Assembly (NCBI GenBank): GCA_026874595.1
Contig: CM049312.1
Span: 24,483,956-24,547,955, forward strand
Direction of reading: 5' to 3'
Length of the DNA stretch: 64,000 nucleotides
Source: Sipunculus nudus
Lineage: Eukaryota > Annelida > Sipuncula > Golfingiida > Sipunculidae
How positions within the stretch are numbered: the stretch's first letter is position 1; the number at the start of each line of letters is the position of its first letter. This document shows positions 20,641 to 59,392 of the stretch, piece by piece. The notes below the pieces were generated by a model. It was not told the DNA's origin. It saw only the letters and a list, made by a program, of their open reading frames with translations, and made no database searches. Position numbers and translations under genes: made by a program.

Positions 20641-22574
20641 GACAAACAAACAAACAAACAAACTAGACGACCATAGGTCGAACGCTTGCCGGAATTCGGA
20701 AGTGAAACACAGACGGACAGACAGAACATATTGTCGGTTTTCTATTAATGGAATGACTCTCAGAGACATTGATGAGAATATGTGGCCCGTAGAATGACAT
20801 ATGAGACAAAAGAACAGGCAAGCAGACAAAGCTGACAACAAAAGACGAACAGACAGACATACTGACTTTGTGAGACAAGATTGACACCAGATGACATAAG
20901 CTAGTTATTGAGAAGATTCAAAGGAAAAAAATGAGTTATAATTTATGTAATTAAGATTTATAGTTTACGAGTTATGGCGAATTAATGATATACTTGGGAG
21001 GCTCGACTGTAGCGCCCTCTAGCAGACATATTCCGAAGACGACAAATGCGTTTCGTATTATTAGTGTATGACATGAGATGTCTCAGTTTCAAAAGGATTC
21101 CGTCAAAGCTGTGGCCTGTAGAATGCTCTATGTAAGGCGTAAGAACCAGCAAGCAGGCGACTTTGAGGATAACGGACAAACAGATGGACACACTGACAAA
21201 GTGACAGAAGATTGAAACCAGATGCCTTAATCAGGTTATGGAGAAGACTCAAAGGAAGAAAATAAGCTATAGCTTATGTAACTGAGGCTTTGGGTGTAGA
21301 GTTATGGCCAATACAATGGTATGTGTGTGAGAGTCATGTGCAGCGCCCACTAGTGGCCATATCCGGAAAATGAAAAATTTATTTCTAGATATTAGTGTAA
21401 GACATAAGATGTAATAGTTTCAAAAGGATTCCGTCAAAACTGTGGCCTACAGAATGCTATATGTGAGACGCAAGAGCCAACAAGCAGGCCAATTTGAGGA
21501 CAACTGACAAACAGACGAAAACACTGACAAAGTGACTCAAAATTGAGTCCAGATGACTTCTCCAGGTTATGGAGAAGACTCAAAGGAAGAAAAAAGCTAC
21601 AGTTTATGTAACTGAGGTTTATAGTTTTGGAGATATTGCCAAAGCATGATATGTTGGGAGAGGTTCAAGTTCAGCGCCCCCTAGCGGCCATATCCGGAAA
21701 ATGAAAAATTTGTTTCGAGATATTAGTGTAAGACTTAAGATGTAATAGTTTCAAAAGGATTCTTTCAAAACTGTGGCCTGTAGAATGCTATATGTGAGAC
21801 GCAAGAGCAAGCAGGCGAATTTGAGGACAACTGACAAACAGACGGACACAATGACAAAGTGACACAACATTGAGATCAGATGACATTATCAGTTTATGGA
21901 GAAGACTCAGAGGGAAAAAATAAGCTATAGTTTATGTAATTGAGGCTTTGGGTTTTAGAGATATGGCCAATGTAATGATATCTGTGTGAGGGTCGTGTGC
22001 AGCGCCCCCTAGCAGCCATATTCAAAAAATGAAAAAACAATTTCGAGATACTAGTGTAGGACTTATGATATGTCAGTTTCAAAAAGATTCCTGCAATAAT
22101 GTGGCCTTTGGCGCAAGATGAATGAAATCTCGAAATATCTCTATTCACGAGATATTTTACGAGATACTGCAAGACTTGTAATAAAATCTTGTAGTACTAG
22201 TTGAATGCTACCTGATGCAAAAAACTAGATCACTCTAGCTTTAAAACTTACAAAGTTAGAAAAATAAGATCCCTTATTTTCGAATATCATGACTTTTCCC
22301 CAAAAAATTGTAACCATGGTTACGGCAAATTTGAGTCAGCTACACACCAGATGACAGGCCTTGGAATGACGATTAAAATGAGCTATTGTTGAAGTAGATA
22401 CGACTAATAGTCACAAAGATATGAAGAAAAAAACGCTTTGAGAAGTTTTGACGACCTTGACCTTGACCTTTGACCTATTTTAACCAAAAACAATAGGGCA
22501 CCTAGAAATTATGTTTTCCAACATCCCTGTAAGTTTCAAGGTTATTGTGGCAAAATTGTGGCCAGGAGAGTGGT
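20641..22574 (+). repeat. Composite 1,934-bp unit, alpha-1
   Basis: Starts at (CAAA)n and contains four ~330-bp subrepeats, each with ATATGGCC, AGCGCCCNCTAGYRG, TTTCGAGATATTAGTG, AGTTTCAAAAGGATTCC, GTGGCCTGTAGAATG and a CAAACAGACGGACACA tail. It ends with a hairpin module (CTCGAAATATCTCT...CGAGATA), CCATGGTTAC, and a DR1-type TGACCTTTGACCT cluster. Small minus-strand ORFs are repeat shadows. Confidence 0.88.
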
Positions 22575-24508
22575 GACAAACAAACAAACAAACAAACTAG
22601 ACGACCATAGGTCGAACGCTTGCCGGAATTCGGAAGTGAAACACAGACGGACAGACAGAACATATTGTCGGTTTTCTATTAATGGAATGACTCTCAGAGA
22701 CATTGCTGAGAATATGTGGCCCGTAGAATGACACATTAGACAAAAGAACAGGCAAGCAGACAAAGCTGACAACAAAAGACGAACAGACAGACATACTGAC
22801 TTTGTGAGTCAAGATTGACACCAGATGACATAACCTCGTGATTGAGAAGATTCAAAGGAAGAAAATGAGTAATAATTTATGTAATTTAGATTTATAGTTT
22901 ACGAGGTATGGCGAATTAATGATATACTTGGGAGGCTCGACTGTAGCGCCCTCTAGCAGACATATTCCGAAGACGACAAATGCGTTTCGTATTATTAGTG
23001 TATGACATGAGATGTCTCAGTTTCAAAAGGATTCCGTCAAAGCTGTGGCCTGTAGAATGCTATATGTAAGGCGTAAGAACCAGCAAGCAGGCGACTTTGA
23101 GGATAACGGACAAACAGATGGACACACTGACAAAGGGACAGAAGATTGAAACCATATGCCTTAATCAGGTTATGGAGAAGACTCAAAGGAAGAAAATAAG
23201 CTATAGCTTATGTAACTGAGGCTTTGGGTGTAGAGATATGGCCAATACAATGGTATGTGTGTGAGGGTCGTGGGCAGCGCCCACTAGTGGCCATATCCGG
23301 AAAATGAAAAATTTATTTCTAGATATTAGTGTAAGACATGAGATGTAATAGTTTCAAAAGGATTCCGTCAAAACTGTGGCCTACAGAATACTATATGTGA
23401 GACGCAAGAGCCAACAAGCAGGCGAATTTGAGGACAACTGACAAACAGACGAAAACACTGACAAAGTGACTCAAAATTGAGTCCAGATGACTTCTCCAGG
23501 TTATGGAGAAGACTCAAAGGAAGAAATAAGCTACAGTTTATGTAACTGAGGTTTATAGTTTTGGAGAAATTGCCAAAGCATGATATGTTGGGAGAGGTTC
23601 GAGTTTAGCGCCCCCTAGCGGCCATATCCGGAAAATGAAAAATTGGTTTCGAGATATTAGTGTAAGACTTAAGATGTAATAGTTTCAAAAGGAATCTTTC
23701 AAAACTGTGGCCTGTAGAATGCTATATGTGAGACGCAAGAGCAAGCAGGCGAATTTGAGGACAACTGACAAACAGACGGACACAATGACAAAGTGACACA
23801 ACATTGAGATCAGATGACATTATCAGTTTATGGAGAAGACTCAGAGGGAAAAAATAAGCTATAGTTTATGTAATTGAGGCTTTGGGTTTTAGAGATATGG
23901 CCAATGTAATGATATCTGTGTGAGGGTCGTGTGCAGCGCCCCCTAGCAGCCATATTCAAAAAATGAAAAAACAATTTCGAGATACTAGTGTAGGACTTAT
24001 GATATGTCAGTTTCAAAAAGATTCCTGCAATAATGTGGCCTTTGGCGCAAGATGAATTAAATCTCGAAATATCTCTATTCACGAGATATTTTACGAGATA
24101 CTGCAAGACTTGTAATAAAATCTTGTAGTACTAGTTGAATGCTACCTGATGCAAAAAACTAGATCACTCTAGCTTTAAAACTGACAAAGTTAGAAAAATA
24201 AGATCCCTTATTTTTGAATATCATGACTTTTCCCCAAAAAATTGTAACCATGGTTACGGCAAATTTGAGTCAGCTACACACCAGATGACAGGCCTTGGAA
24301 TGACGATTAAAATGAGCTATTGTTGAAGTAGATACGACTAATAGTCACAAAGATATGAAGAAAAAAACGTTTTGAGAAGTTTTGATGACCTTGACCTTGA
24401 CCTTTGACCTATTTTAACCAAAAACAATAGGGCACCTAGAAATTATGTTTTCCAACATCCCTGTAAGTTTCAAGGTTATTGTGGCAAAATTGTGGCCAGG
24501 AGAGTGGT
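22575..24508 (+). repeat. Composite 1,934-bp unit, alpha-2
   Basis: Direct tandem copy of alpha-1, exactly 1,934 bp further on, with scattered substitutions. CTCF-like motifs lie near 22,945, 23,276, 23,607 and 23,936, at ~330-bp spacing. Confidence 0.88.
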
Positions 24509-24680
24509 GACAAACAAACAAACAAACAAACAGACAGACAGACAAACAGACATACGCAACTGACCAATATGCTTGCCGAAATCTTTGATTCCGGCAAGCA
24601 ACAAACAAACAGACAGACAAACAGACATACGCAACTGACCAATATGCTTGCGGAAATCGAAGATTTCCGGCAAGCAATAA
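24509..24680 (+). repeat. Hairpin minisatellite
   Basis: Repeats of (CAAA)n(CAGA)n-CATACGCAACTGACCAATA followed by an inverted pair, GCTTGCGGAAATC GAA GATTTCCGGCAAGC or the variant with an internal TTTGATTCC. Period is ~75 bp. The stem is near perfect and could form a cruciform or a strong RNA hairpin. Confidence 0.8.
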
Positions 24681-25857
24681 AGTATGGACTGTGCCTCCAA
24701 CATGTATGATCATAGATGGGGCCCGGAGAGGCCGTCACGGACCGCTGCACACGCCGGCCGCCCACCGTGAGGACCCTGCCGCCACTTGCGGCGACGGCGA
24801 GTGTCTTCGTGGTATGGCGAAAAACGGCGCGAGATTTGACGAGACTAACAATGTGACCCCTGAATGTGACTGCGAGTGTCAGCCGCTATCCAGCGCTGCA
24901 AACCATGTGTCTGTAGCGTGAAAAATGACAGAATTATAGGCATTTCTTTGAATGGTCACGTGTTCTCGTTTCACGAGAAACGGTGCGAGATATGACGAGA
25001 CTTGCGATTGAACGGCTTAGAACTAGAGGGATGCTGTCTAACGCCAAAAACCAGACCTTTCTATCGCAAATATCAACAGAGATAGAATCTGGAAAACTCC
25101 GAATTTTCAGATTGTCAAGTTTTACCCCAAAATTTGGTAACCATGGTAACGGCAGCACAAAGCAACATGTGCGAAGAGATAAGCCAATGTTCCTAGTTTC
25201 AGATACGACCAAAAAAAATGGTGTCACGTTTAATATTTTTTGAGATATTGCAGAAAAATGACATGTTACAGTGTTTCATGTACCACGCCCCCTGGTGGCT
25301 ATTTCCAAAAAATGGAAAACTGATTTCGAGATATTTATAAATAACACAAAATATATCAATTTCAAAGCCATTGTTAAAAAAATGCAACCTGTAGGTCATA
25401 TTTAATGAAATCTCGAAGACTCTCGTTTGACGAGAAATGGTGCGAGATTTGGCGAGACTTTCAGTTTTATCCTGTCAAGCTGCCCATAAGGTACATAATG
25501 ACCAAAACCAGACGTCTGTAGCTTAAAAATTGACAAAGTTACAAAAAATGGTCGTGTTATTTCCAATTTCCATGATTTTTGCCCAAAAAATGTAACCATG
25601 GTAACGGCAAATTTAAGTAAGCTACATGTCAAAAGAAAGGCCAGGTGATGACGAAAAAAATGAGCTATTGCAGAAGTGGATAAGCCTATTTATGGCGAAG
25701 TTATAGTGCAAAAACCGTTAACCATACCTGTCGTGACCTTGACCCTTGACCTTGGAGCAATGTTGACCAAAAACAATAGGGCACCTAGAAATACCGTTTT
25801 CGAACATCCCTGTAAGTTTCAAGGTTATTGTGGCAAAATTGTGGCCAGGAGAGTGGT
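24681..25857 (+). repeat. Composite beta-1 unit with GC-rich segment
   Basis: Opens with a GC- and CpG-rich block (24,715-24,850; GCACACGCCGGCCGCCCACC...GCGGCGACGGCGAG), then the CTCG/CGAG hairpin, GGTAACCATGGTAACGG, a CTCF-like site that exactly fits the vertebrate core (25,286-25,298, minus strand), a second hairpin and X-box-like module, and the TGACC cluster. The GC block contrasts sharply with the AT-rich surroundings. Confidence 0.82.
25286..25298 (-). promoter_or_regulatory. Exact CTCF-core match in beta-1
   Basis: Minus strand reads CCACCAGGGGGCG, fitting all 13 positions of CCASYAGRKGGCR. Copies lie at 26,783-26,795 and 54,891-54,903. Confidence 0.5.
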
Positions 25858-26175
25858 GACAAACAAACAAACAAACAGACAGACAAACAGACATACGCAA
25901 CTGACCAATATGCTTGCGGAAATCGAAGATTTCCGGCAAGCAACAAACAGACAGACAGACAAACAGACATACGCAACTGACCAATATGCTTGCCGAAATC
26001 TTTGATTCCGGCAAGCAACAAACAGACAGACAGACAAACAGACATACGCAACTGACCAATATGCTTGCGGAAATCGAAGATTTCCGGCAAGCAACAAACA
26101 AACAGACAGACAGACAAACAGACATACGCAACTGACCAATATGCTTGCGGAAATCGAAGATTTCCGGCAAGCAAT
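25858..26175 (+). repeat. Hairpin minisatellite, four units
   Basis: Four ~78-bp units of (CAAA/CAGA)n-CATACGCAACTGACCAATATG plus the GCTTGC...GCAAGC inverted pair, with alternating long-stem (GGAAATC/GATTTCC) and short-stem variants. ORFs of up to 160 aa rich in VCLSVCLFVC are translations of the CAGA/CAAA tracts. Confidence 0.85.
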
Positions 26176-27354
26176 AAAGTATGGACTGTGCCTCCAACAT
26201 GTATGATCATAGATGGGGCCCGGAGAGGCCGTCACGGACCGCTGCACACGCCGGCCGCCCACCGTAAGGACCCTGCCGCCACTTGCGGCGACGGCGAGTG
26301 TCTTCGTGGTATGGCGAAAAACGGCGCGAGATTTGACGAGACTAACAATGTGACCCCTGAATGTGACTGCGAGTGTCAGCCGCTATCCAGCGCTGCAAAC
26401 CATGTGTCTGTAGCGTGAAAAATGACAGAATTATAGGCATTTCTTTGAATGGTCACGTGTTCTCGTTTCACGAGAAACGGTGCGAGATATGACGAGACTT
26501 GCGATTGAACGGCTTAGAACTAGAGGGATGCTGTCTAACGCCAAAAACCAGACCTTTCTATCGCAAATATCAACAGAGATAGAATCTGGAAAACTCCGAA
26601 TTTTCAGATTGTCAAGTTTTACCCCAAAATTTGGTAACCATGGTAACGGCAGCACAAAGTAACATGTGCGAAGAGATAAGCCAATGTTCCTAGTTTCAGA
26701 TACGACCAAAAAAAATGGTGTCACGTTTAATATTTTTTGAGATATTGCAGAAAAATGACATGTTACAGTGTTTCATGTACCACGCCCCCTGGTGGCTATT
26801 TCCAAAAAATGGAAAACTGATTTCGAGATATTTATAAATAACACAAAATATATCAATTTCAAAGCCATTGTTAAAAAAATGCAACCTGTAGGTAATATTT
26901 AATGAAATCTCGAAGACTCTCGTTTGACGAGAAATGGTGCGAGATTTGGCGAGACTTTCAGTTTTATCCTGTCAAGCTGCCCATAAGGTACATAATGACC
27001 AAAACCAGACGTCTGTAGCTTAAAAATTGACAAAGTTACAAAAAATGGTCGTGTTATTTCCAATTTCCATGATTTTTGCCCAAAAAATGTAACCATGGTA
27101 ACGGCAAATTTAAGTAAGCTACATGTCAAAAGAAAGGCCAGGTGATGACGAAAAAAATGAGCTATTGCAGAAGTGGATAAGCCTATTTATGGCGAAGTTA
27201 TAGTGCAAAAACCGTTAACCATACCTGTCGTGACCTTGACCCTTGACCTTGGAGCAATGTTGACCAAAAACAATAGGGCACCTAGAAATTACGTTTTCGA
27301 ACATCCCTGTAAGTTTCAAGGTTATTGTGGCAAAATTGTGGCCAGGAGAGTGGT
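26176..27354 (+). repeat. Composite beta-2 unit
   Basis: Tandem copy of beta-1 at +1,497 bp (the extra length is in the minisatellite). It has the same GC-rich block, exact CTCF-core site (26,783-26,795), CCATGGTAAC and TGACC cluster. Confidence 0.85.
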
Positions 27355-28958
27355 GACAAACAAACAAACAAACAAACTAGACGACCATAGGTCGAACGCT
27401 TGCCGGAAATCGGAAGTGAAACACAGACGGAGAGACAGAACATATTGTTGGTTTTCTATTAATGGAATGACCCTCAGGGACATTGCTGAGAATATGTGGC
27501 CCGTAGAATGACATATGAGACAAAAGAACAGGCAAGCAGACAAAGCTGACAACAAAAGACGAACAGACAGACATACTGACTTTGTGAGACAAGATTGACA
27601 CCAGATGACTTAACCTAGTTATGGAGAAGATTCAAAGGAAGAAAATGAGTTATAATTTATGTAATTTAGATTTTTAGTTTTGGAGGTATGGCGAATTAAT
27701 GATATACTTGGGAGGCTCGACTGTAGTGCCCTCTGGCGGACATATTTCGAAGACGACAAATGCGTTTCGTATTATCAGTGTATGACATGAGATGTCCCAG
27801 TTTCAAAAGGATTCCGTCAAAGCTGTGGCCTGTAGAATGCTATATGTAAGGCGTAAGAACCAGCAGGCAGGCGACTTTGAGGATAACGGACAAACAGATG
27901 GACACACTGACAAAGTGACAGAAGATTGAAACCAGATGCCTTAACCAGGTTAAGGAGAAGACTCAAAGGAAGAAAATAAGCTAAAGTTTATGTAACTTAG
28001 GGTTTTGGGTGTAGAGATATGGCCAATACAATGGTATGTGTGTGATGGTCGTGTGCAGCGCCCACTAGTGGCCATATCCCTATAATGAAAAATTTATTTC
28101 TAGATATTAGTGTAAGACATAAGATGTAATAGTTTCAAAAGGATTCCGTCAAAACTGTGGCCTATAGAATGCTATATGTGAGACGCAAGAGCAAGCAGGC
28201 GAATTTGAGGACAACTGACAAACAGACGGACACAATGACAAAGTGACACAACATTGAGATCAGATGACATTATCAGTTTATGGAGAAGACTCAGAGGGAA
28301 AAAATAAGCTATAGTTTATGTAATTGAGGCTTTGGGTTTTAGAGATATGGCCAATGTAATGATATCTGTGTGAGGGTCGTGTGCAGCGCCCCCTAGCAGA
28401 CATATTCAAAAAATGAAAAAACAATTTCGAGATACTAGTGTAGGACTTATGATATGTCAGTTTCAAAAAGATTCCTGCAATAATGTGGCCGTTGGCGCAA
28501 GATGAATGAAATCTCGAAATATCTCTATTCACGAGATATTTTACGAGATACTGCAAGACTTGTAATAAAATCTTGTAGTACTAGTTGAGAGCTACCTGAT
28601 GCAAAAAACTAGATCACTCTAGCTTTAAAACTGACAAAGTTAGAAAAATAAGATCCCTTATTTTCGAATATCATGACTTTTCCCCAAAAAATTGTAACCA
28701 TGGTTACGGCAAATTTGAGTCAGCTACACACCAGATGACAAACCTTGGAATGACGATTAAAATGAGCTATTGTTGAAGTAGATACGACTAATAGTCACAA
28801 AGATATGAAGAAAAAAACGTTTTGAGAAGTTTTGACGACCTTGACCTTGACCTTTGACCTACTTTAACCAAAAACAATGGGGCACCTAGAAATTATGTTT
28901 TCCAACATCCCTGTAAGTTTCAAGGTTATTGTGGCAAAATTGTGGCCAGGAGAGTGGT
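27355..28958 (+). repeat. Composite unit alpha-3 (three subrepeats)
   Basis: Same organisation as alpha-1 but with one ~330-bp subrepeat missing: CTCF-like motifs near 27,725, 28,056 and 28,386. It ends in the same hairpin, CCATGGTTAC and TGACC modules. Confidence 0.85.
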
Positions 28959-30081
28959 GACAAACAAACAAACAAACAAGAACCAGCAAGTAGGCGAATT
29001 TGAGGACAACTGACAAACAGACGGACACACTGACAAAGTGACTCAAGACTGAGTCCAGATGACTACTCCAGATTATGGAGACGACTCAAAGGAAGAAAAA
29101 AGCTACAGTCTATGTAACTGAGGTTTATAGTTTTGGAGATATTGCCAAAGCATGATATGTTGGGAGAGGTTCGAGTTCAGCGCCCCCTAGCGGCCATATC
29201 CCGAAAATGGAAAATTGGTTTCGAGATATTAGTGTAAGACTTAAGATGTAATAGTTTCAAAAGGATTCTTTCAAAACTGTAGCCTGTAGAATGCTATATG
29301 TGAGACGCAAGAGCAAGCAGTCGAATTTCAGGACAACTGACAAACAGACGGACACAATGACAAAGTGACACAACATTGAGACCAGATGACATCATCAGTT
29401 TATGGAGAAGACTCAGAGGGAAAAAATAAGCTATAGTTTATGTAATTGAGGCTTTGGGTTTTAGAGATATGGCCAATGTAATGATATGTGTGTGAGGTTC
29501 GTGTGCAGCGCCCCCTAGCAGCCATATTCAAAAAATGAAAAAAACATTTCGAGATACTAGTGTAGGACTTATGATATGTCAGTTTCAAAAAGATTCCTGC
29601 AATAATGTGGCCTTCGGCGCAAGATGAATGAAATCTCGAAATATCTCTATTCACGAGATATTTTTCGAGATACTGCAAGACTTTTTATAAAATCTTGTAG
29701 TACTAGTTGAATGCTACCTGATGCAAAAAACTAGATCACTCTAGCTTTAAAACTGACAAAGTTACAAAAATTAGACCCCTTATTTTCGAATATCATGACT
29801 TTTCCCCAAAAATTTGTTACCATGGTTACTTCAAATTTGAGTCAGCTACACATCAGATGACAGGCCAGGTGATGACGAAAAAAATGAGCTATTGCAGAAG
29901 TGGATAAGCCTATTTATGGCGAAGTTATAGTGCAAAAACCATTAACCATACCTGTCGTGACCTTGACCTTTGACCTTTGACCTATTTTAACCAAAAACAA
30001 TAGGGCACCTAGACATTATGTTTTTCATCATCCCTGTAAGTTTCAAGGTGATTATGGCAAAATTGTGGCCAGGAGAGTGGT
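28959..30081 (+). repeat. Composite unit alpha-4 (two subrepeats)
   Basis: Shortened unit with two ~330-bp subrepeats (motifs near 29,178 and 29,508) and the usual 3' module. The 4, 4, 3, 2 series of subrepeat numbers across alpha units points to unequal exchange between subrepeats. Confidence 0.82.
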
Positions 30082-30880
30082 GACAAACAAACAAACAGAC
30101 AAACAGACTAGACGACCATAGGTCGAGAGCTTGCCGGACCGAAATGACATACAGATTGGACAAACATGACAAACTGTCGGTTTTCTATCAATTGAATGAA
30201 TTTTAAAGCGATTGCTGGAAAGCTTGGCCTGTTGAACGACATATATTACACAAAAGAACATGGAAGCAGACATAGCTCAAACCTGACAGATATACTGACA
30301 CACCTGAGATAACAGAATACCAGAAAAAGTGGGGAACGTAAAGAGAAGCAAAATGAGCTATAGTTTTAGTAGGTAGAGTTTATAATGTCGGAGATATGGC
30401 CCAAAAATGATATGGTGTGGAGGCTCTACTGCAGCATCTCCTAGCGGCCATATCCCAAATATTAAAAATTTCTTTTGAGATATTTATATAATAAATAAGA
30501 TGTTTCAATTCCAAAAGGATTCCTGGAAAACTGTGGCATGAAGATTGCTGAGTGTAAGACGCAAGATCTAGCAAGCAGGCGAAATTGAGGATCACTGACA
30601 AACAGAGAGACATACTGAAAATGTAACACAAGAATAAGACCAGATGACTAACTCAGATTATGGAGTAGATTCAAAGGAAGACAATCAATAAGTGTTTGTA
30701 ATTGAGGTTTATAGTTCTGTAGATATGGGCAAAAATATATATATAGGGGAGGGGCGAGTGCAGCGCCACCTATTGACAATATCCGGAAAATGAATAATCT
30801 GTTTCGAGATATTACTGTAAGATATAAGATGTATTAGTTTAACAAGTGAGCCATTGGTCATGACGCTCAGCTGCCAAGCT
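30082..30880 (+). repeat. Decayed alpha-type subrepeats
   Basis: Two diverged ~330-bp subrepeats with degenerate CTCF-like motifs (GCATCTCCTAGCGGCC near 30,433; GCGCCACCTATTG near 30,763). More diverged than the neighbouring units. Confidence 0.7.
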
Positions 30881-31290
30881 TGACCTGCCACATCATGGAA
30901 TGAGATTCACAACTTCCAGTCACATTTTGAAGAACCAATTTGCCAATATGTTGAAATTTTCTACGACAACAGAAATATATATCACCTATGTCTGGTTATA
31001 ACACAGTGACTGGATGGTCTGAGGAAAAATGTACGATTGTTAAGCTATCAGTAACTATTCCCATAGCTTGCTTGATACCTGTCAGTCTCAAAAGGAACAC
31101 CACAAAGGGCAAATATAAGATCAAAATATATAGCAAAAATCAAGGAAATCCATGCAAGAATAATTGAGAAACAGGTGCTTATAAATATGAAGTTTGAATC
31201 AAATTGAGTGATGCATAGATGTGGCATATGTGAAAGACTGAAGGTTTTGGTTGAACAGTTTCACTTGCAAAATGTTCACAACCATTTAGA
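30881..31290. other. Unclassified sequence
   Basis: No gene and no clear match to the surrounding repeat modules; possibly the diverged 5' part of the following dispersed repeat. Confidence 0.4.
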
Positions 31291-32070
31291 ATAATTAAGT
31301 GTTGTGTCCTTGACCTTTTGAACTCGACATCGATAGGCTTCTTCCCCTATTGGTAGGTAAGCCATATACGACAAATGGAAGGTATAGATTGAAAAGTTTC
31401 CTGAAAATGACTCCACACAAAAAATGGGTGCAGTGAACTTCACCTTTGACCTCAAAATTAACAGGTCTTTTCCCCTGTTGGCAGAGAAGCGATATCAGTG
31501 CTGGAAAGTTTGGAATGAAATGTCTAGCTTGAAATGTTTTCACAACCTTTTAAAAAAATTGAATCCTGTGACCCTGATCTTTGACCTTGTGACTTAAAAA
31601 TCTATAGGATTTTTCTCCCTCTTAGTAGGTGAAATATATGTAAAAGATCAAAGAATTGGGATGAAAGATTTGGCTTAAAATGCATCCACAGGCATTAAAA
31701 AAGTGGCTCCTGTGACCTTGACCTTTGACTTGTTGACTTCAAAATAATTATGGATCTTCCCCTGTTGGTAGATGAGCTGTATGTGAAAGATGGAGGGTTT
31801 TGGATGAAAATTTTAGCTAAAAGAATTATTTCTGCGGGGTGCATACACACCCTGTAACTTCGAGAATATAGGTCAGTGACCTAATTTCAGGTTTGCAAGG
31901 AGATCATTTTAGAACCTCTAAGACTACATAGGGTCCATGACCCTAGCCCGTACAGTTACGATTTGTGCCCTGCTAACAGACGGACGGCCGATCAGCAGGA
32001 TGGACAGATGGAAGGACGACGGACAAAGACTCATCACTATAGCCCAGCATGACTGAAAGTCAGCTGAGCT
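31291..32070 (+). repeat. Dispersed repeat with ~130-145-bp TGACCTTTGACC subunits
   Basis: About four degenerate subunits anchored near 31,304, 31,432, 31,566 and 31,711, each with TGACCTTTGAC, CTTCCCCTRTTGG and GGATGAAA, ending with GATTTGTGCCCTGCTAACAG and GGACGG tracts. It is similar to a repeat type frequent in mollusc DNA (recollection, not searched). The same end sequence appears near 18,409. Confidence 0.6.
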
Positions 32071-32892
32071 AAAAATGATCCTTTACGGTGGCCTGTAGAA
32101 TGCTATCAGTGAGACTCAAGAACCAACAAGCCGGCGAATTTGAGGACAACTGAAAAACAAACAGACAAACTTACAAAGGGTCACAAGATGGAGACAAGAT
32201 GACTTAACCAGGTTATGGAGAAGACTCAGAGGAAGAAAATAAGCTATACTTTATGTAATTGAGGCTTATAATTTTGGAGATATGGCCAAATAATGATATA
32301 CTGGGGATGTTCGACTGCAGCGCCCTCTAGTGGACATATCCTGAAGACGACAAATGCGTTTCGTGATATTAGTGTATGACATAAGATGTAATAGTTTCAT
32401 AAGGATTCGTCCACATATCTGACTTGTTGATTGCTATATCTAAAGTGCAAAAACTAGCAAGCAGGCGAATTAGAGTATAAATGACAAACAGACAGACATA
32501 CTGACAAAGTGACACAAGATGGCGGCCAGATGACTTGACCATGTTTTGAAGAAGACCAAGAGAAAGAAAATAAGCTATAGTTTGTGTAATATAGGTTTAC
32601 TCTTACGGAAATATGTTCAAAAACTGATTTTTTTGGAAGGGTCAAGTGCAGCGCCCCCTAGCAGTCATATCGGGAAAATGAAAAATAAGTTTTGAGATAT
32701 TAGTATAATACATAAGATGAAGGAACAAACATACACGGGTGACCAACTTGCTTTCGAAAATCATAGATTTCCGGCAAGCAATAAAGTTTGGACTGTGCCT
32801 CCCGGAAAGGCCGACACGCACCGCTGCACACGCCGGCTGCCCACCGTAAGGACCCTGTCGCCACCTGCGGCAATTGCACGTGTCTTAGTGGT
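32071..32892 (+). repeat. Diverged alpha subrepeats plus beta fragment
   Basis: Two ~330-bp subrepeats with motifs near 32,319 and 32,649, then a partial hairpin minisatellite (TTCCGGCAAGCAATAAAG) and a shortened GC-rich beta block (32,800-32,890). It abuts the macrosatellite. Confidence 0.72.
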
Positions 32893-33283
32893 ATGTATCA
32901 GTTTCAAAAGGATGCCTGCATATCTGTGGCCTATAGGGCATGTCACCGTGAAATCGCGAAAATCTCATTCGACGAGAAACGGTGCGAGATTTTGCAAGAT
33001 TTTTGGATGGATCACCGAGAACTCACCAAGGGCTACAAGATGCAAAAATTTTGACCTCTCTAGCATACAAACTGACAGAGTTAGAAGCTGAAAACTGCAT
33101 ATTTTCAAAATTCAAAAGTTTTACCCCAAAAATAGAGAAATCTGGCAATAGCGCACTTTGGCACCTATGCGCAAAAATAAGCCCATGGACCCTAGTTTAA
33201 GGTGCTGTGATGGAAATGGCCCAATGTTTCATAGTTCTGGAGGTATAGCACCAAAACAAATTTTCATGTTTTTCCATCTGCAA

Positions 33284-33296
33284 CGCCCCCTGGCGG
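33284..33296 (-). promoter_or_regulatory. CTCF-like motif, site 1 of macrosatellite unit
   Basis: Minus strand reads CCGCCAGGGGGCG, 12 of 13 positions of the vertebrate core CCASYAGRKGGCR (position 3 is G). It repeats every ~1,275 bp through the array (34,559, 35,834 and so on). Binding is not shown; mollusc CTCF specificity is assumed similar to that of other bilaterians. Confidence 0.45.
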
Positions 33297-33422
33297 CCAT
33301 TTCCAAAATCTGAAAAAACAATTTCGAGATATTCTTATGTTACATAAAATATCTCAGAATCAGTAAAATTGCTGCAAATTTGAAAAATATCACGAAATTC
33401 CATGATTTCTCCCCAAAATTGC

Positions 33423-33436
33423 GTAACCATGGTAAC
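33423..33436. promoter_or_regulatory. X-box-like (RFX) palindrome
   Basis: GTAACCATGGTAAC differs at one position from the RFX consensus GTTRCCATGGYAAC. It recurs in every macrosatellite unit and, as GTAACCATGGTTAC or GTAACCATGGTAAC, in the alpha and beta units. Confidence 0.4.
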
Positions 33437-33562
33437 AGCGAAATGGGGCAATTTTGCAGTGTTGGAAGTGGCCATGCAGTGGCAAATAAAACGGGCTACA
33501 GATTAGGTGCCTACGGCTATTTTTGACGAAGGTATGAAGAAAAAACCGTTTTTGAGCTTTTT

Positions 33563-33598
33563 GGTGACCCTGACCTTGACCCTTGACTGATCATGACC
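33563..33598. promoter_or_regulatory. Nuclear-receptor half-site cluster
   Basis: Four to five TGACCY half-sites occur in 36 bp, repeated in each unit. In alpha units the cluster contains a perfect DR1 (TGACCTTTGACCT; for example within 22,453-22,476) and TGACCTTGA extended half-sites. Motif presence only. Confidence 0.35.
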
Positions 33599-34100: not shown

Positions 34101-34114
34101 GCGCCCCCTAGCGG
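34101..34114 (-). promoter_or_regulatory. CTCF-like motif, site 2 of macrosatellite unit
   Basis: Minus strand reads CCGCTAGGGGGCGC, same orientation as site 1 and ~817 bp from it. Present in each of the 16 full units. Confidence 0.42.
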
Positions 34115-49100: not shown

Positions 49101-52100
49101 GGTCACTTATTTTATACGGCGAATGCTATAATTTTTGCAGGCACGGGAAAGCGTGTCTGTCTTTCATACTAAAACGCGTGCATGCATGCGTGATGGCATA
49201 TGTATTGGTGCATGCGGTTTTTAATTTTTACAAAGTTGCTAAAATTTGTGGGGACCGTGTATGATTAAACAAAAGAGGTCATGGGCAGAAAGGCCATGAA
49301 ACGCCAATTCATATGGTGTACAGTTTATGTACCTAAAATGTGTACTTTTGGAGATATGGTTAAACAATGATAGTAGGTACGGGGTTGCAGTGCAGCGCCC
49401 CCTAGCGGTAATTTTCCAAAAACTGAACAATTGCTTTCGAGATATTAGTGTATGACGTAACATGTATCAGTTTCAAAAGGATGCCTGCATATCTGTGGCC
49501 TATAGGGCATGTCACCGTGAAATCGCGAAATCTCATTCGACGAGAAACGGTGCGAGATATTGCAAGATTTTTGGTTGGATCACCGAGAACTCACCAAGGG
49601 CTACAAGATGCAAAAATTTTGACCTCTCTAGCATAAAAACTGACAGAGTTAGAAGCTGAAAACTGCATATTTTCAAAATTCAAAGGTTTTACCCCAAAAA
49701 TAGAGAAATCTGGCAATAGCGCACTTTGGCACCTATGCGCAAAAACAAGCCCATGGACCCTAGTTTAAGGTGCTGTGATGGAAATGGCCCAATGTTTAAT
49801 AGTTCTGGAGGTATAGCACCAAAACAAATTTTCATGTTTTTTTCATCTGCAACGCCCCCTGGCGGCCATTTCCAAAATCTGGAAAACCCGTTTCGAGATA
49901 TTCTTATGTTACATAAAATATCTCAGAATTAGTAAAATTGCTGCAAATTTGAAAAATATCACGAAATTCCATGATTTCTCCCCAAAATTGCGTAACCATG
50001 GTAACAGCGAAATGAGGCAATTTTGCAGTGTTGGAAGTGGCCATGCAGTGGCAAATAAAACGGGCTACAGATTAGGTGCCTACGGCTATTTTCGACGAAG
50101 GTATGAAGAAAAAACCGTTTTTGAGCTTTTTGGTGACCCTGACCTTGACCCTAGACCGATCATGACCAAAAACAATAGGCTCCGAGAAGAACCGATTATA
50201 CACTCTATCTATAAGTTTCAGGACGATTGGTGCAAAATTGTGGCCTGTAGAGCGGGGACATACAGACAAACAAACAAACGGAACTGATCAACATACTTGT
50301 CGAAATCTCTGATTCCGGCAAGCAATAAACTATAACGCGACAGAAATGGCAAACCGGCCCGCAAAGAGTGCCTGTGGTCACTTATTTTATACGGCGAACG
50401 CTATAATTTTTGCAGGCACGGGAAAGCGTGTCTGTCTTTCATACTAAAACGCGTGCATGCATGCGTGATGGCATATGTATTGGTGCATGCGGTTTTTAAT
50501 TTTTACAAAGTTGCTAAAATTTGTGGGGACCGTGTATGATTAAACAAAAGAGGTCATGGGCAGAAAGGCCATGAAACGCCAATTCATATGGTGTACAGTT
50601 TATGTACCTAAAATGTGTACTTTTGGAGATATGGTTAAACAATGATAGTAGGTACGGGGTTGCAGTGCAGCGCCCCCTAGCGGTAATTTTCCAAAAACTG
50701 AACAATTGCTTTCGAGATATTAGTGTATGACGTAACATGTATCAGTTTCAAAAGGATGCCTGCATATCTGTGGCCTATAGGGCATGTCACCGTGAAATCG
50801 CGAAATCTCATTCGACGAGAAACGGTGCGAGATATTGCAAGATTTCTGGTTGGATCACCGAGAACTCACCAAGGGCTACAAGATGCAAAAATTTTGACCT
50901 CTCTAGCATAAAAACTGACAGAGTTAGAAGCTGAAAACTGCATATTTTCAAAATTCAAAGGTTTTACCCCAAAAATAGAGAAATCTGGCAATAGCGCACT
51001 TTGGCACCTATGCGCAAAAACAAGCCCATGGACCCTAGTTTAAGGTGCTGTGATGGAAATGGCCCAATGTTTAATAGTTCTGGAGGTATAGCACCAAAAC
51101 AAATTTTCATGTTTTTTCATCTGCAACGCCCCCTGGCGGCCATTTCCAAAATCTGGAAAACCCGTTTCGAGATATTCTTATGTTACATAAAATATCTCAG
51201 AATCAGTAAAATTGCTGCAAATTTGAAAAATATCACGAAATTCCATGATTTCTCCCCAAAATTGCGTAACCATGGTAACAGCGAAATGAGGCAATTTTGC
51301 AGTGTTGGAAGTGGCCATGCAGTGGCAAATAAAACGGGCTACAGATTAGGTGCCTACGGCTATTTTCGACGAAGGTATGAAGAAAAAACCGTTTTTGAGC
51401 TTTTTGGTGACCCTGACCTTGACCCTAGACCGATCATGACCAAAAACAATAGGCTCCGAGAAGAACCGATTATACACTCTATCTATAAGTTTCAGGACGA
51501 TTGGTGCAAAATTGTGGCCTGTAGAGCGGGGACATACAGACAAACAAACAAACGGAACTGATCAACATACTTGTCGAAATCTCTGATTCCGGCAAGCAAT
51601 AAACTATAACGCGACAGAAATGGCAAACCGGCCCGCAAAGAGTGCCTGTGGTCACTTATTTTATACGGCGAACGCTATAATTTTTGCAGGCACGGGAAAG
51701 CGTGTCTGTCTTTCATACTAAAACGCGTGCATGCATGCGTGATGGCATATGTATTGGTGCATGCGGTTTTTAATTTTTACAAAGTTGCTAAAATTTGTGG
51801 GGACCGTGTATGATTAAACAAAAGAGGTCATGGGCAGAAAGGCCATGAAACGCCAATTCATATGGTGTACAGTTTATGTACCTAAAATGTGTACTTTTGG
51901 AGATATGGTTAAACAATGATAGTAGGTACGGGGTTGCAGTGCAGCGCCCCCTAGCGGTAATTTTCCAAAAACTGAACAATTGCTTTCGAGATATTAGTGT
52001 ATGACGTAACATGTATCAGTTTCAAAAGGATGCCTGCATATCTGTGGCCTATAGGGCATGTCACCGTGAAATCGCGAAATCTCATTCGACGAGAAACAGT

Positions 52101-54148
52101 GCGAGATATTGCAAGATTTTTGGTTGGATCACCGAGAACTCACCAAGGGCTACAAGATGCAAAAATTTTGACCTCTCTAGCATAAAAACTGACAGAGTTA
52201 GAAGCTGAAAACTGCATATTTTCAAAATTCAAAGGTTTTACCCCAAAAATAGAGAAATCTGGCAATAGCGCACTTTGGCACCTATGCGCAAAAACAAGCC
52301 CATGGACCCTAGTTTAAGGTGCTGTGATGGAAATGGCCCAATGTTTAATAGTTCTGGAGGTATAGCACCAAAACAAATTTTCATGTTTTTTCATCTGCAA
52401 CGCCCCCTGGCGGCCATTTCCAAAATCTGGAAAACCCGTTTCGAGATATTCTTATGTTACATAAAATATCTCAGAATCAGTAAAATTGCTGCAAATTTGA
52501 AAAATATCACGAAATTCCATGATTTCTCCCCAAAATTGCGTAACCATGGTAACAGCGAAATGAGGCAATTTTGCAGTGTTGGAAGTGGCCATGCAGTGGC
52601 AAATAAAACGGGCTACAGATTAGGTGCCTACGGCTATTTTCGACGAAGGTATGAAGAAAAAACCGTTTTTGAGCTTTTTGGTGACCCTGACCTTGACCCT
52701 AGACCGATCATGACCAAAAACAATAGGCTCCGAGAAGAACCGATTATACACTCTATCTATAAGTTTCAGGACGATTGGTGCAAAATTGTGGCCTGTAGAG
52801 CGGGGACATACAGACAAACAAACAAACGGAACTGATCAACATACTTGTCGAAATCTCTGATTCCGGCAAGCAATAAACTATAACGCGACAGAAATGGCAA
52901 ACCGGCCCGCAAAGAGTGCCTGTGGTCACTTATTTTATACGGCGAACGCTATAATTTTTGCAGGCACGGGGAAGCGTGTCTGTCTTTCATACTAAAACGC
53001 GTGCATGCATGCGTGATGGCATATGTATTGGTGCATGCGGTTTTTAATTTTTACAAAGTTGCTAAAATTTGTGGGGACCGTGTATGATTAAACAAAAGAG
53101 GTCATGGGCAGAAAGGCCATGAAACGCCAATTCATATGGTGTACAGTTTATGTACCTAAAATGTGTACTTTTGGAGATATGGTTAAACAATGATAGTAGG
53201 TACGGGGTTGCAGTGCAGCGCCCCCTAGCGGTAATTTTCCAAAAACTGAACAATTGCTTTCGAGATATTAGTGTATGACGTAACATGTATCAGTTTCAAA
53301 AGGATGCCTGCATATCTGTGGCCTATAGGGCATGTCACCGTGAAATCGCGAAATCTCATTCGACGAGAAACGGTGCGAGATATTGCAAGATTTTTGGTTG
53401 GATCACCGAGAACTCACCAAGGGCTACAAGATGCAAAAATTTTGACCTCTCTAGCATAAAAACTGACAGAGTTAGAAGCTGAAAACTGCATATTTTCAAA
53501 ATTCAAAGGTTTTACCCCAAAAATAGAGAAATCTGGCAATAGCGCACTTTGGCACCTATGCGCAAAAACAAGCCCATGGACCCTAGTTTAAGGTGCTGTG
53601 ATGGAAATGGCCCAATGTTTAATAGTTCTGGAGGTATAGCACCAAAACAAATTTTCATGTTTTTTTCATCTGCAACGCCCCCTGGCGGCCATTTCCAAAA
53701 TCTGGAAAACCCGTTTCGAGATATTCTTATGTTACATAAAATATCTCAGAATCAGTAAAATTGCTGCAAATTTGAAAAATATCACGAAATTCCATGATTT
53801 CTCCCCAAAATTGCGTAACCATGGTAACAGCGAAATGAGGCAATTTTGCAGTGTTGGAAGTGGCCATGCAGTGGCAAATAAAACGGGCTACAGATTAGGT
53901 GCCTACGGCTATTTTCGACGAAGGTATGAAGAAAAAACCGTTTTTGAGCTTTTTGGTGACCCTGACCTTGACCCTAGACCGATCATGACCAAAAACAATA
54001 GGCTCCGAGAAGAACCGATTATACACTCTATCTATAAGTTTCAGGACGATTGGTGCAAAATTGTGGCCTGTAGAGCGGGGACATACAGACAAACAAACAA
54101 ACGGAACTGATCAACATACTTGTCGAAATCTCTGATTCCGGCAAGCAA

Positions 54149-54286
54149 CAAACAGACATACGCAACTGAGTAATATGCTTGCCGAAATCTTTGATTCCGG
54201 CAAGCAACAAACAGACAGACAGACAAACAGACATACGCAACTGACCAATATGCTTGCGGAAATCGAAGATTTCCGGCAAGCAATAA
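54149..54286 (+). repeat. Hairpin minisatellite at distal edge of macrosatellite
   Basis: Two units of CATACGCAACTGA...GCTTGC/GCAAGC hairpin with (CAGA)n. It joins the last macrosatellite hairpin directly, suggesting exchange within the shared CCGGCAAGCAA sequence. Confidence 0.8.
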
Positions 54287-55462
54287 AGTATGGACTGTGC
54301 CTCCAACATGTATGATCATAGATGGGGCCCGGAGAGGCCGTCACGGACCGCTGCACACGCCGGCCGCCCACCGTAAGGACCCTGCCGCCACTTGCGGCGA
54401 CGGCGAGTGTCTTCGTGGTATGGCGAAAAACGGCGCGAGATTTGACGAGACTAACAATGTGACCCCTGAATGTGACTGCGAGTGTCAGCCGCTATCCAGC
54501 GCTGCAAACCATGTGTCTGTAGCGTGAAAAATGACAGAATTATAGGCATTTCTTTGAATGGTCACGTGTTCTCGTTTCACGAGAAACGGTGCGAGATATG
54601 ACAAGACTTGCGATTGAACGGCTTAGAACTAGAGGGATGCTGTCTAACGCCAAAAACCAGACCTTTCTATCGCAAATATCAACAGAGATAGAATCTGGAA
54701 AACTCCGAATTTTCAGATTGTCAAGTTTTACCCCAAAATTTGGTAACCATGGTAACGGCAGCACAAAGCAACATGTGCGAAGAGATAAGCCAATGTTCCT
54801 AGTTTCAGATACGCCCAAAAAAATGGTGTCACGTTTAATATTTTTTGAGATATTGCAGAAAAATGACATGTTACAGTGTTTCATGTACCACGCCCCCTGG
54901 TGGCTATTTCCAAAAAATGGAAAACTGATTTCGAGATATTTATAAATAACACAAAATATATCAATTTCAAAGCCATTGTTAAAAAAATGCAACCTGTAGG
55001 TCATATTTAATGAAATCTCGAAGACTCTCGTTTGACGAGAAATGGTGCGAGATTTGGCGAGACTTTCAGTTTTATCCTGTCAAGCTGCCCATAAGGTACA
55101 TAATGACCAAAACCAGACGTCTGTAGCTTAAAAATTGACAAAGTTACAAAAAATGGTCGTGTTATTTCCAATTTCCATGATTTTTGCCCAAAAAATGTAA
55201 CCATGGTAACGGCAAATTTAAGTAAGCTACATGTCAAAAGAAAGGCCAGGTGATGACGAAAAAAATGAGCTATTGCAGAAGTGGATAAGCCTATTTATGG
55301 CGAAGTTATAGTGCAAAAACCGTTAACCATACCTGTCGTGACCTTGACCCTTGACCTTGGAGCAATGTTGACCAAAAACAATAGGGCACCTAGAAATTAC
55401 GTTTTCGAACATCCCTGTAAGTTTCAAGGTTATTGTGGCAAAATTGTGGCCAGGAGAGTGGT
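54287..55462 (+). repeat. Composite beta-3 unit
   Basis: Near-identical to beta-2 with an offset of ~28.1 kb, including the GC-rich block (54,320-54,450) and the exact CTCF-core motif. One small deletion near 54,815 fuses two minus-strand frames. Confidence 0.85.
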
Positions 55463-57392
55463 GACAAACAAACAAACAAACTAGACGACCATAGGTCGAA
55501 CGCTTGCCGGAATTCGGAAGTGAAACACAGACGGACAGACAGAACATATTGTCGGTTTTCTATTGATGGAATGACTCTCAGAGACATTGCTGAGAATATG
55601 TGGCCCGTAGAATGACATATGAGACAAAAGAACAGGCAAGCAGACAAAGCTGACAACAAAAGACGAACAGACAGACATACTGACTTTGTGAGACAAGATT
55701 GACACCAGATAACATAAGCTAGTTATTGAGAAGATTCAAAGGAAGAAAATGAGTTATAATTTATGTAATTTATATTTATAGTTTACGAGGTATGGCGAAT
55801 TAATGATATACTTGGGAGGCTCGACTGTAGCGCCCTCTAGCAGACATATTCCGAAGACGACAAATGCGTTTCGTATTATTAGTGTATGACATGAGATGTC
55901 TCAGTTTCAAAAGGATTCCGTCAAAGCTGTGGCCTGTAGAATGCTCTATGTAAGGCGTAAGAACCAGCAAGCAGGCGACTTTGAGGATAACGGACAAACA
56001 GATGGACACACTGACAAAGTGACAGAAGATTGAAACCAGATGCCTTAATCAGGCTATGGAGAAGACTCAAAGGAAGAAAATAAGCTATAGCTTATGTAAC
56101 TGAGGCTTTGGGTGTAGAGTTATGGCCAATACAATGGTATGTGTGTGACAGCCATGTGCAGCGCCCACTAGTGGCCATATGCGGAAAATGAAAAATTTAT
56201 TTCTAGATATTAGTGTAAGACATAAGATGTAATAGTTTCAAAAGGATTCCGTCAAAACTGTGGCCTACAGAATGCTTATATGTGAGACGCAAGAGCCAAC
56301 AAGCAGGCGAATTTGAGGACAACTGACAAACAGACGAAAACACTGACAAAGTGACTCAAAATTGAGTCCAGATGACTTCTCCAGGTTATGGAGAAGACTC
56401 AAAGGAAGAAAAAAGCTACAGTTTATGTAACTGAGGTTTATAGTTTTGGAGATATTGCCAAAGCATGATATGTTGGGAGAGGTTCGAGTTCAGCGCCCCC
56501 TAGCGGCCATATCCGGAAAATGAAAAATTGGTTTCGAGATATTAGTGCAAGACTTAAGATGTAATAGTTTCAAAAGGATTCTTTCAAAACTGTGGCCTGT
56601 AGAATGCTATATGTGAGACGCAAGAGCAAGCAGGCGAATTTGAGGACAACTGACAAACAGACGGACACAATGACAAAGTGACACAACATTGAGATCAGAT
56701 GACATTATCAGTTTATGGAGAAGACTCAGAGGGAAAAAATAAGCTATAGTTTATGTAATTGAGGCTTTGGGTTTTAGAGATATGGCCAATGTAATGATAT
56801 CTGTGTGAGGGTCGTGTGCAGCGCCCCCTAGCAGCCATATTCAAAAAATGAAAAAACAATTTCGAGATACTAGTGTAGGACTTATGATATGTCAGTTTCA
56901 AAAAGATTCCTGCAATAATGTGGCCTTTGGCGCAAGATGAATGAAATCTCGAAATATCTCTATTCACGAGAAATTTTACGAGATACTGCAAGACTTGTAA
57001 TAAAATCTTGTAGTACTAGTTGAATGCTACCTGATGCAGAAAACTAGATCACTCTAGCTTTAAAACTGACAAAGTTAGAAAAATAAGATCCCTTATTTTC
57101 GAATATCATGACTTTTCCCCAAAAAATTGTAACCATGGTTACGGCAAATTTGAGTCAGCTACACACCAGATGACAGGCCTTGGAATGACGATTAAAATGA
57201 GCTATTGTTGAAGTAGATACGACTAATAGTCACAAAGATATGAAGAAAAAACCATTTTGAGAAGTTTTGACGACCTTGACCTTGACCTTTGACCTATTTT
57301 AACCAAAAACAATAGGGCACCTAGAAATTATATTTTCCAACATCCCTGTAAGTTTCAAGGTTATTGTGGCAAAATTGTGGCCAGGAGAGTGG
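55463..57392 (+). repeat. Composite unit alpha-5 (four subrepeats)
   Basis: About 1,930 bp with CTCF-like motifs near 55,829, 56,160, 56,493 and 56,820; closest in structure to alpha-1. Confidence 0.87.
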
Positions 57393-59392
57393 TGACAAAC
57401 AAACAAACAAACAGACAGACAAACAGACATACGCAACTGACCAATATGCTTGCCGAAATCTTTGATTCCGGCAAGCAACAAACTAGACGACCATAGGTCG
57501 AACGCTTGCCGGAATTCGGAAGTGAAACACAGACTGACAGACAGAACATATTGTCGGTTTTCTATTAATGGAATGACTCTCAGAGACATTGCTGAGAATA
57601 TGTGGCCCGTAGAATGACATATGAGACAAAAGAACAGGCAAGCAGACAAAGCTGACAACAAAAGACGAACAGACAGACATACTGACTTTGTGAGACAAGA
57701 TTGACACCAGATGACATGAGCTAGTTATTGAGAAGATTCAAAGGAAGAAAATGAGTTAAAATTTATGTAATTTAGATTTATAGTTTACGAGGTATGGCGA
57801 ATTAATGATATACTTGGGAGGCGCGACTGTAGCGCCCTCTAGCAGACATATTCCGAAGACGACAAATGCGTTTCGTATTATTAGTGTATGACATGAGATG
57901 TCTCAGTTTCAAAAGGATTCTGTCAAAGCTGTGGCCTGTAGAATGCTATATGTAAGGCGTAAGAACCAGCAAGCAGGCGACTTAGAGGATAACGGACAAA
58001 CAGATGGACACACTGACAAAGTGACAGAAGATTGAAACCAGATGCCTTTATCAGGTTATGGAGAAGACTCAAAGGAAGAAAATAAGCTATAGTTTATGTA
58101 ACTGAGGCTTTGGGTGTAGAGTAATGGCCCATACAATGGGATGAGTGTGAGAGTCATGTGCAGCGCCCACTAGTGGCCATATCCGGAAAATGAAGAAATT
58201 ATTTCTAGATATTAGTGTAGAACATAAGATGTAATAGTTTCAAAAGGATTCCGTCAAAACTGTGGCCTACAGAATGCTATATGTGAGACGCAAGAGCCAA
58301 CAAGCAGGCGAATTTGAGGACAACTGACAAACAGACGAAAACACTGACAAAGTGACTCAAAATTGAGTCCAGATGACTTCTCCAGGTTATGGAGAAGACT
58401 CAAAGGAAGAAAAAAGCTACAGTTTATGTAACTGAGGTTTATAGTTTTGGAGATATTGCCAAAGGATGATATGTTGGGAGAGGTTCGAGTTCAGCGCCCC
58501 CTAGCGGCCATATCCGGAAAATGAAAAATTGGTTTCGAGATATTAGTGTAAGACTTAAGATGTAATAGTTTCAAAAGGATTCTTTCAAAACTGTGGCCTT
58601 TAGAATGCTATATGTTAGACGCAAGAGCAAGCAGGCGAATTTGAGGACAACTGACAAACAGACAGACACACTGACAAAGTGTCACAAAATTGTGACCAGA
58701 TGACTACACTAGGTTATGGAGAAGACTCAGAGGAAGAAAATAAGCTATAGTTTATGTAATTGAGGCTTATAATTTTGGAGATATGGCCAAAATATGATAT
58801 GTTCGGGAGGTTCGCATCCAGCGCCCCCTAGCGGCCCTATTCAAAAAGTGAAAAAACGATTTCGAGATACTAGTGTAGGACTTATAATATGTCAGTTTCA
58901 AAAAGATTCCTGCAATAATGTGGCCTTTGGCGCAAGATGAATGAAATCTCGAAATATCTCTATTCACGAGATATTTTACGAGATACTGCAAGACTTGTTA
59001 TAAAATCTTGTAGTACTAGTTGAATGCTACCTGATGCAAAAAACTAGATCACTCTAGCTTTAAAACTGACAAAGTTAGAAAAATAAGATCCCTTATTTTC
59101 GAATATCATGACTTTTCCCCAAAAAATTGTAACCATGGTTACGGCAAATTTGAGTCAGCTACACACCAGATGACAGGCCTTGGAATGACGATTAAAATGA
59201 GCTATTGTTGAAGTAAATACGACTAACAGTCACAAAGATATGAAGAAAAAAACGTTTTGAGAAGTTTTGACGACCTTGACCTTGACCTTTGACCTATTTT
59301 AACCAAAAACAATAGGGCACCTAGAAATTATGTTTTCCAACATCCCTATAAGTTTCAAGGTTATTGTGGCAAAATTGTGGCCAGGAGAGTGG
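57393..59392 (+). repeat. Composite unit alpha-6 with inserted hairpin minisatellite
   Basis: A single hairpin-minisatellite unit (57,393-57,482) is followed by four ~330-bp subrepeats (motifs near 57,830, 58,161, 58,494, 58,820) and the 3' module. The last subrepeat is a diverged variant. Confidence 0.86.

Follow-up and report, generated by a model that had tools for sequence, protein, structure and literature searches.

The array of tandem repeats at positions 20,601–59,650 of the window (the 64-kb stretch of Sipunculus nudus DNA analyzed here) carries a C-rich motif that we interpret, with a probability of about 0.6, as a genuine CTCF recognition sequence lodged inside a mobile, non-autonomous repeat. 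By its architecture, this repeat probably belongs to the pearl/HINE (Helentron-associated) elements. The element would bear a cassette of CTCF-type sites, an RFX-like palindrome, nuclear-receptor-like half sites, an ACAA/ACAG microsatellite and an end hairpin. The motif, its spread across the genome, its spacing and polarity within the element, the host CTCF gene and the motif excess outside the repeat can all be read directly in the sequence.

Scored with the vertebrate CTCF matrix (JASPAR MA0139.1; cut-off ≥12 bits), the array contained 61 minus-strand matches with a median score of 22.6 bits, the outermost at 21,010–21,028 and 58,819–58,837. They comprised 19 sites in a first heterogeneous part made of 331-bp units and longer elements (20,601–33,203, borders approximate), 33 in a macrosatellite of ~1,274–1,275-bp units (33,204–54,119, borders approximate) and 9 in a second heterogeneous part (54,120–59,650), exactly the partition that an earlier note on this DNA had counted by eye for its ~60 motifs at 21,009–58,835. 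That these tandem sites all point in one direction was likewise borne out. The note's statement that none is inverted holds for the repeat's own motif; the sole plus-strand match ≥12 bits in the array, at 32,509, is weak (15.4 bits) and distinct from it. Since each macrosatellite unit carries two sites, CCGCCAGGGGGCG and CCGCTAGGGGGCG, copied every ~1,275 bp, the 33 macrosatellite matches have low independence. The exact fit to the vertebrate core claimed in the note needs qualifying: the strict consensus CCASYAGRKGGCR occurred in only four copies in the window, at 25,286 (25,286–25,298, minus strand, letters CCACCAGGGGGCG), 26,783, 32,321 and 54,891, and most other array sites had CCG in place of CCA. 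With the third base allowed to be A or G (CCRSYAGRKGGCR), 44 exact copies were found in the window, all on the minus strand, against 0.08 expected. One mismatch to CCASYAGRKGGCR added 45 further sites, again all minus, while two mismatches gave hits on both strands (15 plus, 14 minus).

The motif is strongly over-represented outside the array's repeat, where its flanks are vertebrate-like. Genome-wide, we found 11,362 sites for CCASYAGRKGGCR versus 168 for the reversed pattern, a control containing a CpG absent from the original, the effect of which should be small at a CpG observed/expected of 0.83–0.89 in the window. The corresponding counts were 2,274 versus 45 for CCASYAGATGGCR and 1,913 versus 70 for CCGSYAGATGGCR, the latter indicating that the macrosatellite's CCG form shares in the excess. 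Among the first 100 CCASYAGRKGGCR sites listed, 42 lay in the array's repeat and 58 outside it; the places listed in these genome-wide searches all come from the beginning of one contig (C1), 27 of the repeat-linked places were assigned by eye from their coordinates, and array-related loci were counted as 15 rather than 16 by leaving out one (L060) with a 33-bp match away from its motif. For the 47 non-array sites left after 11 of the 58 rows were dropped as family duplicates, the fit of the flanks to the CTCF matrix, at positions not used in picking the sites, averaged −0.25 versus −2.77 (s.d. 0.43); none of 5000 random placements matched it, and swapping the flanks lowered it to −3.3. Sites outside the array combine the motif seen within it with a matching flank preference.

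As the earlier note had presumed, CTCF is present in the host. The genome has one clear CTCF gene with 11 fingers, 55% identical to human CTCF across the finger domain, a value that points to an invertebrate host, since vertebrate CTCFs are much closer to the human protein. The DNA-reading helices of ZF3 and ZF5 are identical to the human ones and that of ZF4 is off at one position, while ZF6 and ZF7 differ at 4/7 and 3/7 positions, respectively. One or two fingers have been lost in echinoderm and hemichordate CTCF (PMC13317027), so a count of 11 argues against a host from these groups. A CTCF paralogue was also considered as reader of the motif and set aside, as the next three best C2H2 loci, the only ones compared, lacked the CTCF helix residues. 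The matrix match, the host gene and the genome-wide excess make the CTCF identity of the motif well supported as a sequence prediction.

Repeat-linked CTCF-type sites number 9,358 genome-wide (versus 0), and the macrosatellite unit was found at no fewer than 12 places on 9 contigs, i.e., the window's own and 11 others, a lower bound because 18 of 1,584 candidates were scored. Neighboring sites ≤10 kb apart agreed in orientation in 76 of 78 pairs (first 100 places listed), and the uniform orientation of the array sites results from head-to-tail growth. Of 30 window matches to the palindrome pattern GT[TA]ACCATGGT[ATG]AC, 29 lie in the array, as do 26 of the window's 27 half-site-like triples; GTAACCATGGTWACNGC had 8,105 copies genome-wide versus 0 reversed. 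The RFX X-box is a palindrome of the GTNRCC..RGYAAC type, which GTAACCATGGTAAC fits and from which GTAACCATGGTTAC is one base away. One such palindrome, GTAACCATGGTAAC at 25,137–25,150, lies 146 bp from a CTCF-type site, and a nuclear-receptor-half-site-like triple (TGACCTTGACCCTTGACC, 25,734–25,751, plus strand) lies 142 bp past a palindrome start. At 24,509–24,681 (plus strand), hairpin modules (GCTTGC..GAAATC..GATTTCCGGCAAGC), with which element copies end, come after an ACAA/ACAG microsatellite. The element has central tandem repeats and a microsatellite, as in pearl/HINE-like elements, and GCTTGC..GCAAGC hairpin modules, identified by eye at the ends of copies, resemble the pearl/HINE 3' palindrome or hairpin.

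The arrangement of this cassette was evaluated in 60 of 100 listed places, thinned by hand and anchored on the palindrome rather than on the motif. A CTCF-type match ≥12 bits was present in one relative orientation in 47 of the 60 loci and in the other in none, at a spacing from the palindrome of about −310, +145 or −140 in 44 of these 47; the other 13 loci had no CTCF-type site. Copies were then compared across 66 rows (64 distinct) of 100 listed out of 1,583 matches, with look-alike rows dropped by eye; an alignment around the CTCF site that mixed non-homologous modules was left out of the conservation figures. Between old copies (610 pairs), flanks differed by 43% and the core by 9%, while in recent copies (490 pairs) the core differed by 7.7% and the flanks by 3.8%. 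Individual copies thus look unconstrained, their core drifting beyond the flanks, and the core being kept between old subfamilies and drifting in recent copies suggests that selection acts on the element and not on each array. Within the 66 rows, ATGATATGTT was better conserved than the core (~2% versus 5.7% non-consensus). TTTCGAGATATTA was nearly as conserved as the core in a ranking of 19 sites from the window plus 14 of the 15 array-related loci, which is biased because all sites were picked by their motif.

The earlier note had proposed a special DXZ4-like boundary between two genes. In the form weighed here, the array would insulate its flanks, and both its orientation and its copy number would be under selection. 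In favor of this proposal are the 61 high-scoring same-direction sites in 38 kb and the macrosatellite format shared with DXZ4 (PMC3491370); the tandem macrosatellite with the motif (two copies) in every unit was indeed found, but the single dedicated locus was not, since the unit recurs across 9 contigs. A repeat dispersed in thousands, a single orientation that is the rule for this repeat in the places sampled, and a motif no better conserved than its flanks in recent copies speak against it, and we regard it as highly doubtful. Of the proposed neighbors, the sushi gene is matched by an open frame with a Sushi domain to the right of the array (62,053–62,322, minus strand; Pfam E 7.5e-7), but none of the 10 open frames submitted to Pfam that lie in the left flank (8 frames) matched a lectin family, a result too narrow to establish that lectins are absent. 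No RNA family reached its gathering score in the 64-kb window. At most, the ~60 head-to-tail copies of the array are a candidate chromosome boundary.

Arrays of tandem repeats are commonly heterochromatic, and the drift of recent copies would fit a passive-cargo reading, in which the element once took up an ancestral CTCF site and its arrays are silenced and unbound. We consider this unlikely: the array's CpG observed/expected of 0.83 gives no sign of heavy methylation, and the retention of the core across subfamilies despite ~43% flank divergence, together with fixed spacing and polarity relative to the palindrome, suggests that the site was kept during the element's active period. The motif might instead serve the element's transposition or another zinc-finger protein, its CTCF likeness being secondary. 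Internal repeated motifs of fixed polarity might suit a transposition protein, and the CTCF finger domain has at least 325 matches in this genome, which is rich in C2H2 fingers; however, the excess outside the repeat with CTCF-like flanks and the lack of the CTCF helix residues at the next three best C2H2 loci make such a role improbable. Chance resemblance in C-rich repeats gains a little from the two independent sites behind the 33 macrosatellite matches, but was rejected as extremely improbable: dinucleotide shuffles, a comparison that the earlier note had called for, equalled the observed maximum in just 2 of 2000 cases for the macrosatellite unit and 0 of 2000 for the 331-bp unit, leaving the observed scores far above them, exact CCRSYAGRKGGCR copies vastly exceed expectation, and a motif form unseen in the array's repeat shows a ~50-fold genome-wide excess.

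Under the preferred reading, i.e., a CTCF site within a mobile repeat, array copies would be bound by CTCF, and the site would have been kept because it benefits the element, by keeping its chromatin open and transcribable or by insulating it from its surroundings, and not for a per-array need of the host. Head-to-tail amplification would then produce, as a side effect, dense clusters of CTCF sites that all face the same way. Should the polarity rules of vertebrates apply, these minus-strand motifs would stall cohesin approaching from the left, and the loops that they anchor would extend in the direction of lower coordinates. More speculatively, and with considerable doubt, this pearl/Helentron-like element may have supplied a large share of the genome's CTCF motifs (42 among the first 100 exact matches listed) and, at set distances from them, RFX-like and receptor-like sites, its arrays acting as directional cohesin barriers. 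CTCF-site turnover by mobile elements, as known from mammals, would then have arisen independently in an invertebrate.

Vertebrate loop rules are not to be assumed here, given that echinoderm boundaries are described as enriched for CTCF motifs without an orientation pattern (PMC13317027). A 2023 review (PMC10658181) mentions a single study in spiralians with indications of loop extrusion, and a later preprint reports CTCF-like motifs at loop anchors in three cephalopods (PMC12407938). In the titles and abstract openings of the open-access literature, we found no report that places CTCF sites within repeats or satellites of molluscs or other invertebrates. The many loci with tens of high-scoring same-direction sites offer a ready test of invertebrate CTCF directionality: should the arrays insulate, directionality would be older or convergent; should they fail to, vertebrate-like directionality would be unlikely in this lineage. 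If true, the preferred reading would make this animal a clear non-vertebrate example of CTCF-site seeding by a mobile element.

Among known systems, human X-linked DXZ4 likewise consists of head-to-tail kilobase units with CTCF sites, and the surroundings of its CTCF site and promoter are the best-kept part as the unit diverges (PMC3491370). Unlike DXZ4, the arrays described here occupy many loci on many contigs, sprang from a dispersed repeat and have two predicted sites per 1.27-kb unit. In rodents, SINE B2 is the main mobile-element carrier of CTCF sites, with thousands of them. The gain of rodent CTCF sites via transposable elements (PMC7520972) is similar in that a mobile element carries and multiplies the site, whereas the element here is non-SINE and non-coding, with a tandem core, microsatellite and hairpins, and its predicted sites also form tandem arrays. 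HINE/DINE-1-like Helentron-associated elements are likewise non-coding, with central tandem repeats, a microsatellite and a palindrome near the 3' end (PMC4067079); the available part of that source mentions no cassette combining CTCF, RFX-like and receptor-like sites. Pearl elements, which that source cites, share this architecture. Further hallmarks of the pearl/HINE kind are subterminal inverted repeats, a T-rich target and an autonomous partner. Finally, Caenorhabditis Helitrons with heat-shock elements show a Helitron family supplying many sites for one host factor (PMC6927752); occupancy was measured there, whereas the sites reported here are predicted from sequence and their factor is an architectural one.

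Within the array (window 20.6-59.65 kb), a scan with the JASPAR MA0139.1 matrix, thresholded at ≥12 bits, returned 61 minus-strand matches: 19 before the macrosatellite (33204-54119), 33 inside it, and 9 after it. This confirms the observation of same-direction CTCF-like motifs made in the earlier note and reproduces its counts by eye, and its "none inverted" holds for the repeat's own motif; a single weak plus-strand match, of another kind, lies at 32,509. The exact fit to the vertebrate CTCF core that it had described was found at only 4 places, with 45 more, all minus, one mismatch from the strict consensus. Real units scored above dinucleotide shuffles (maximum reached by 2/2000 for the macrosatellite unit and 0/2000 for the 331-bp unit), and CCRSYAGRKGGCR had 44 exact matches in the window, all minus, vs 0.08 expected. 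Since two sites were multiplied by unit copying, the 33 macrosatellite matches are non-independent. Median scores were 22.6 bits for array sites vs 21.7 bits for dispersed sites. In the matrix scan, the right flank of the window had two matches ≥12 bits and the left flank none; the left flank also includes a duplication (813-5970 and 7225-12387, offset ~6.4 kb) with identical or near-identical open frames.

At the sequence level, the identity of the array motif as a CTCF-type site, a candidate for CTCF binding, is well supported. Across the genome searched (1.43 Gb, 153 contigs; window at C7:24,483,956-24,547,955), CCASYAGRKGGCR occurred 11,362 times vs 168 for the reversed pattern. Among its first 100 matches listed, on contig C1, 27 had the repeat-linked form and 15 further aligned to the array, while 58 had no array alignment, 33 of them without any in-sample relative. 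For 47 deduplicated non-array sites, scored only at flank positions unused in site selection, flanks averaged -0.25 on the CTCF matrix vs -2.77 for random placements (sd 0.43; 0/5000 as good), and swapped flanks did not fit (-3.3). AGATGG forms, none of which were seen in the array's repeat, were in excess genome-wide both with CCA (2,274 vs 45 reversed, ~50-fold) and with CCG (1,913 vs 70, 27-fold), the latter partly from other repeats, e.g., a cluster at C1:65 Mb. In the two listings counted, C1 carried 66 CCG sites below 59.1 Mb, four within 2 kb of one another, and 100 CCA sites below 59.5 Mb. From the AGATGG-form and dispersed-site counts, the CTCF-type motif is therefore over-represented far beyond the array's repeat, including the macrosatellite's CCG form. 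A T lies 12 bases before the core in 29/47 dispersed sites and 17/18 array sites printed, perhaps an upstream contact of Sipunculus nudus CTCF or simple T-richness. Many CCGCCAGATGGCG/A sites with recurring spacings, seemingly a separate repeat family, share G000:C1 65.14-65.43 Mb with copies of the array's repeat, and six listed loci (L031, L038, L039, L054, L067, L068) form a separate small family with a CCACCAGGTGGCG CTCF-type site.

The genome search found one strong CTCF gene (C11:67,037,578, E 4e-109; next-best locus 9.5e-56), with 11 fingers and 55% finger-domain identity to human. A comparison with human at seven helix positions shows no differences in ZF3 or ZF5, one in ZF4, four in ZF6, and three in ZF7; these helix residues are absent from the three next-best loci.

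Array units follow a common plan of CTCF-type sites, palindrome, TGACC-type triples, ACAA/ACAG microsatellite, and hairpin modules terminating in CCGGCAAGCAA. The RFX X-box-like palindrome (GTAACCATGGTWAC or a near variant) occurs 29 times in the array, and 26 of these are followed at 142-148 bp by a nuclear-receptor-like half-site triple (e.g., 25592-25605 and 25734-25751), accounting for all 26 array triples. An adjoining tandem repeat (18873-20392, period ~148/448 bp) has its own palindrome copy at 19926. Genome-wide, we counted 9,358 repeat-linked CTCF-type motifs and 8,105 palindromes with an NGC tail (reversed controls, 0 each). In 64 distinct rows anchored beside the motif rather than on it, core vs flank differences were 7.7% vs 3.8% in recent copies, 8-14% vs 14 rising to 35% in intermediate copies, and 9% vs 43% in the most diverged; block ATGATATGTT was better conserved than the core. 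Of 60 palindrome-anchored loci, 13 had no CTCF-type match ≥12 bits; in the other 47, such a match always lay in a single relative orientation, never the opposite, at about -310 (23), +145 (15), -140 (6), -245 (2), and -302 (1). Given this core-versus-flank divergence and the fixed orientation and spacing to the palindrome, we read the pattern as constraint on the element during its spread, with little on individual inserted copies.

The earlier note had proposed a local DXZ4-like boundary. However, the macrosatellite unit occurs in at least 12 places on 9 contigs, window copy included (full-length matches, 96-100% identity; a lower bound, with 18/1,584 candidates scored), and another array at C1:7.644-7.655 Mb, outside these 12, has the same two motif flanks and 1,274-bp spacing. 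By eye, flanks at five unit places are chains of related elements with hairpin ends at the joins. Among the first 100 repeat-linked places listed, 76/78 neighbor pairs within 10 kb share a strand and 1/11 clusters is mixed, so uniform orientation is ordinary for a head-to-tail repeat and is not evidence of a local boundary. With the unit multi-locus and orientation explained by amplification, the proposal as stated is unsupported, but the array might still act like a CTCF cluster.

Titles and abstract openings in the open-access literature yielded no description of CTCF-bearing repeats outside vertebrates. Domain borders in squid are enriched for a CTCF-like motif (PMC9023564), and CTCF motifs in echinoderms lack an orientation pattern (PMC13317027). 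The plan of the Sipunculus nudus repeat itself resembles that of pearl/HINE elements (PMC4067079), a putative assignment from internal architecture.
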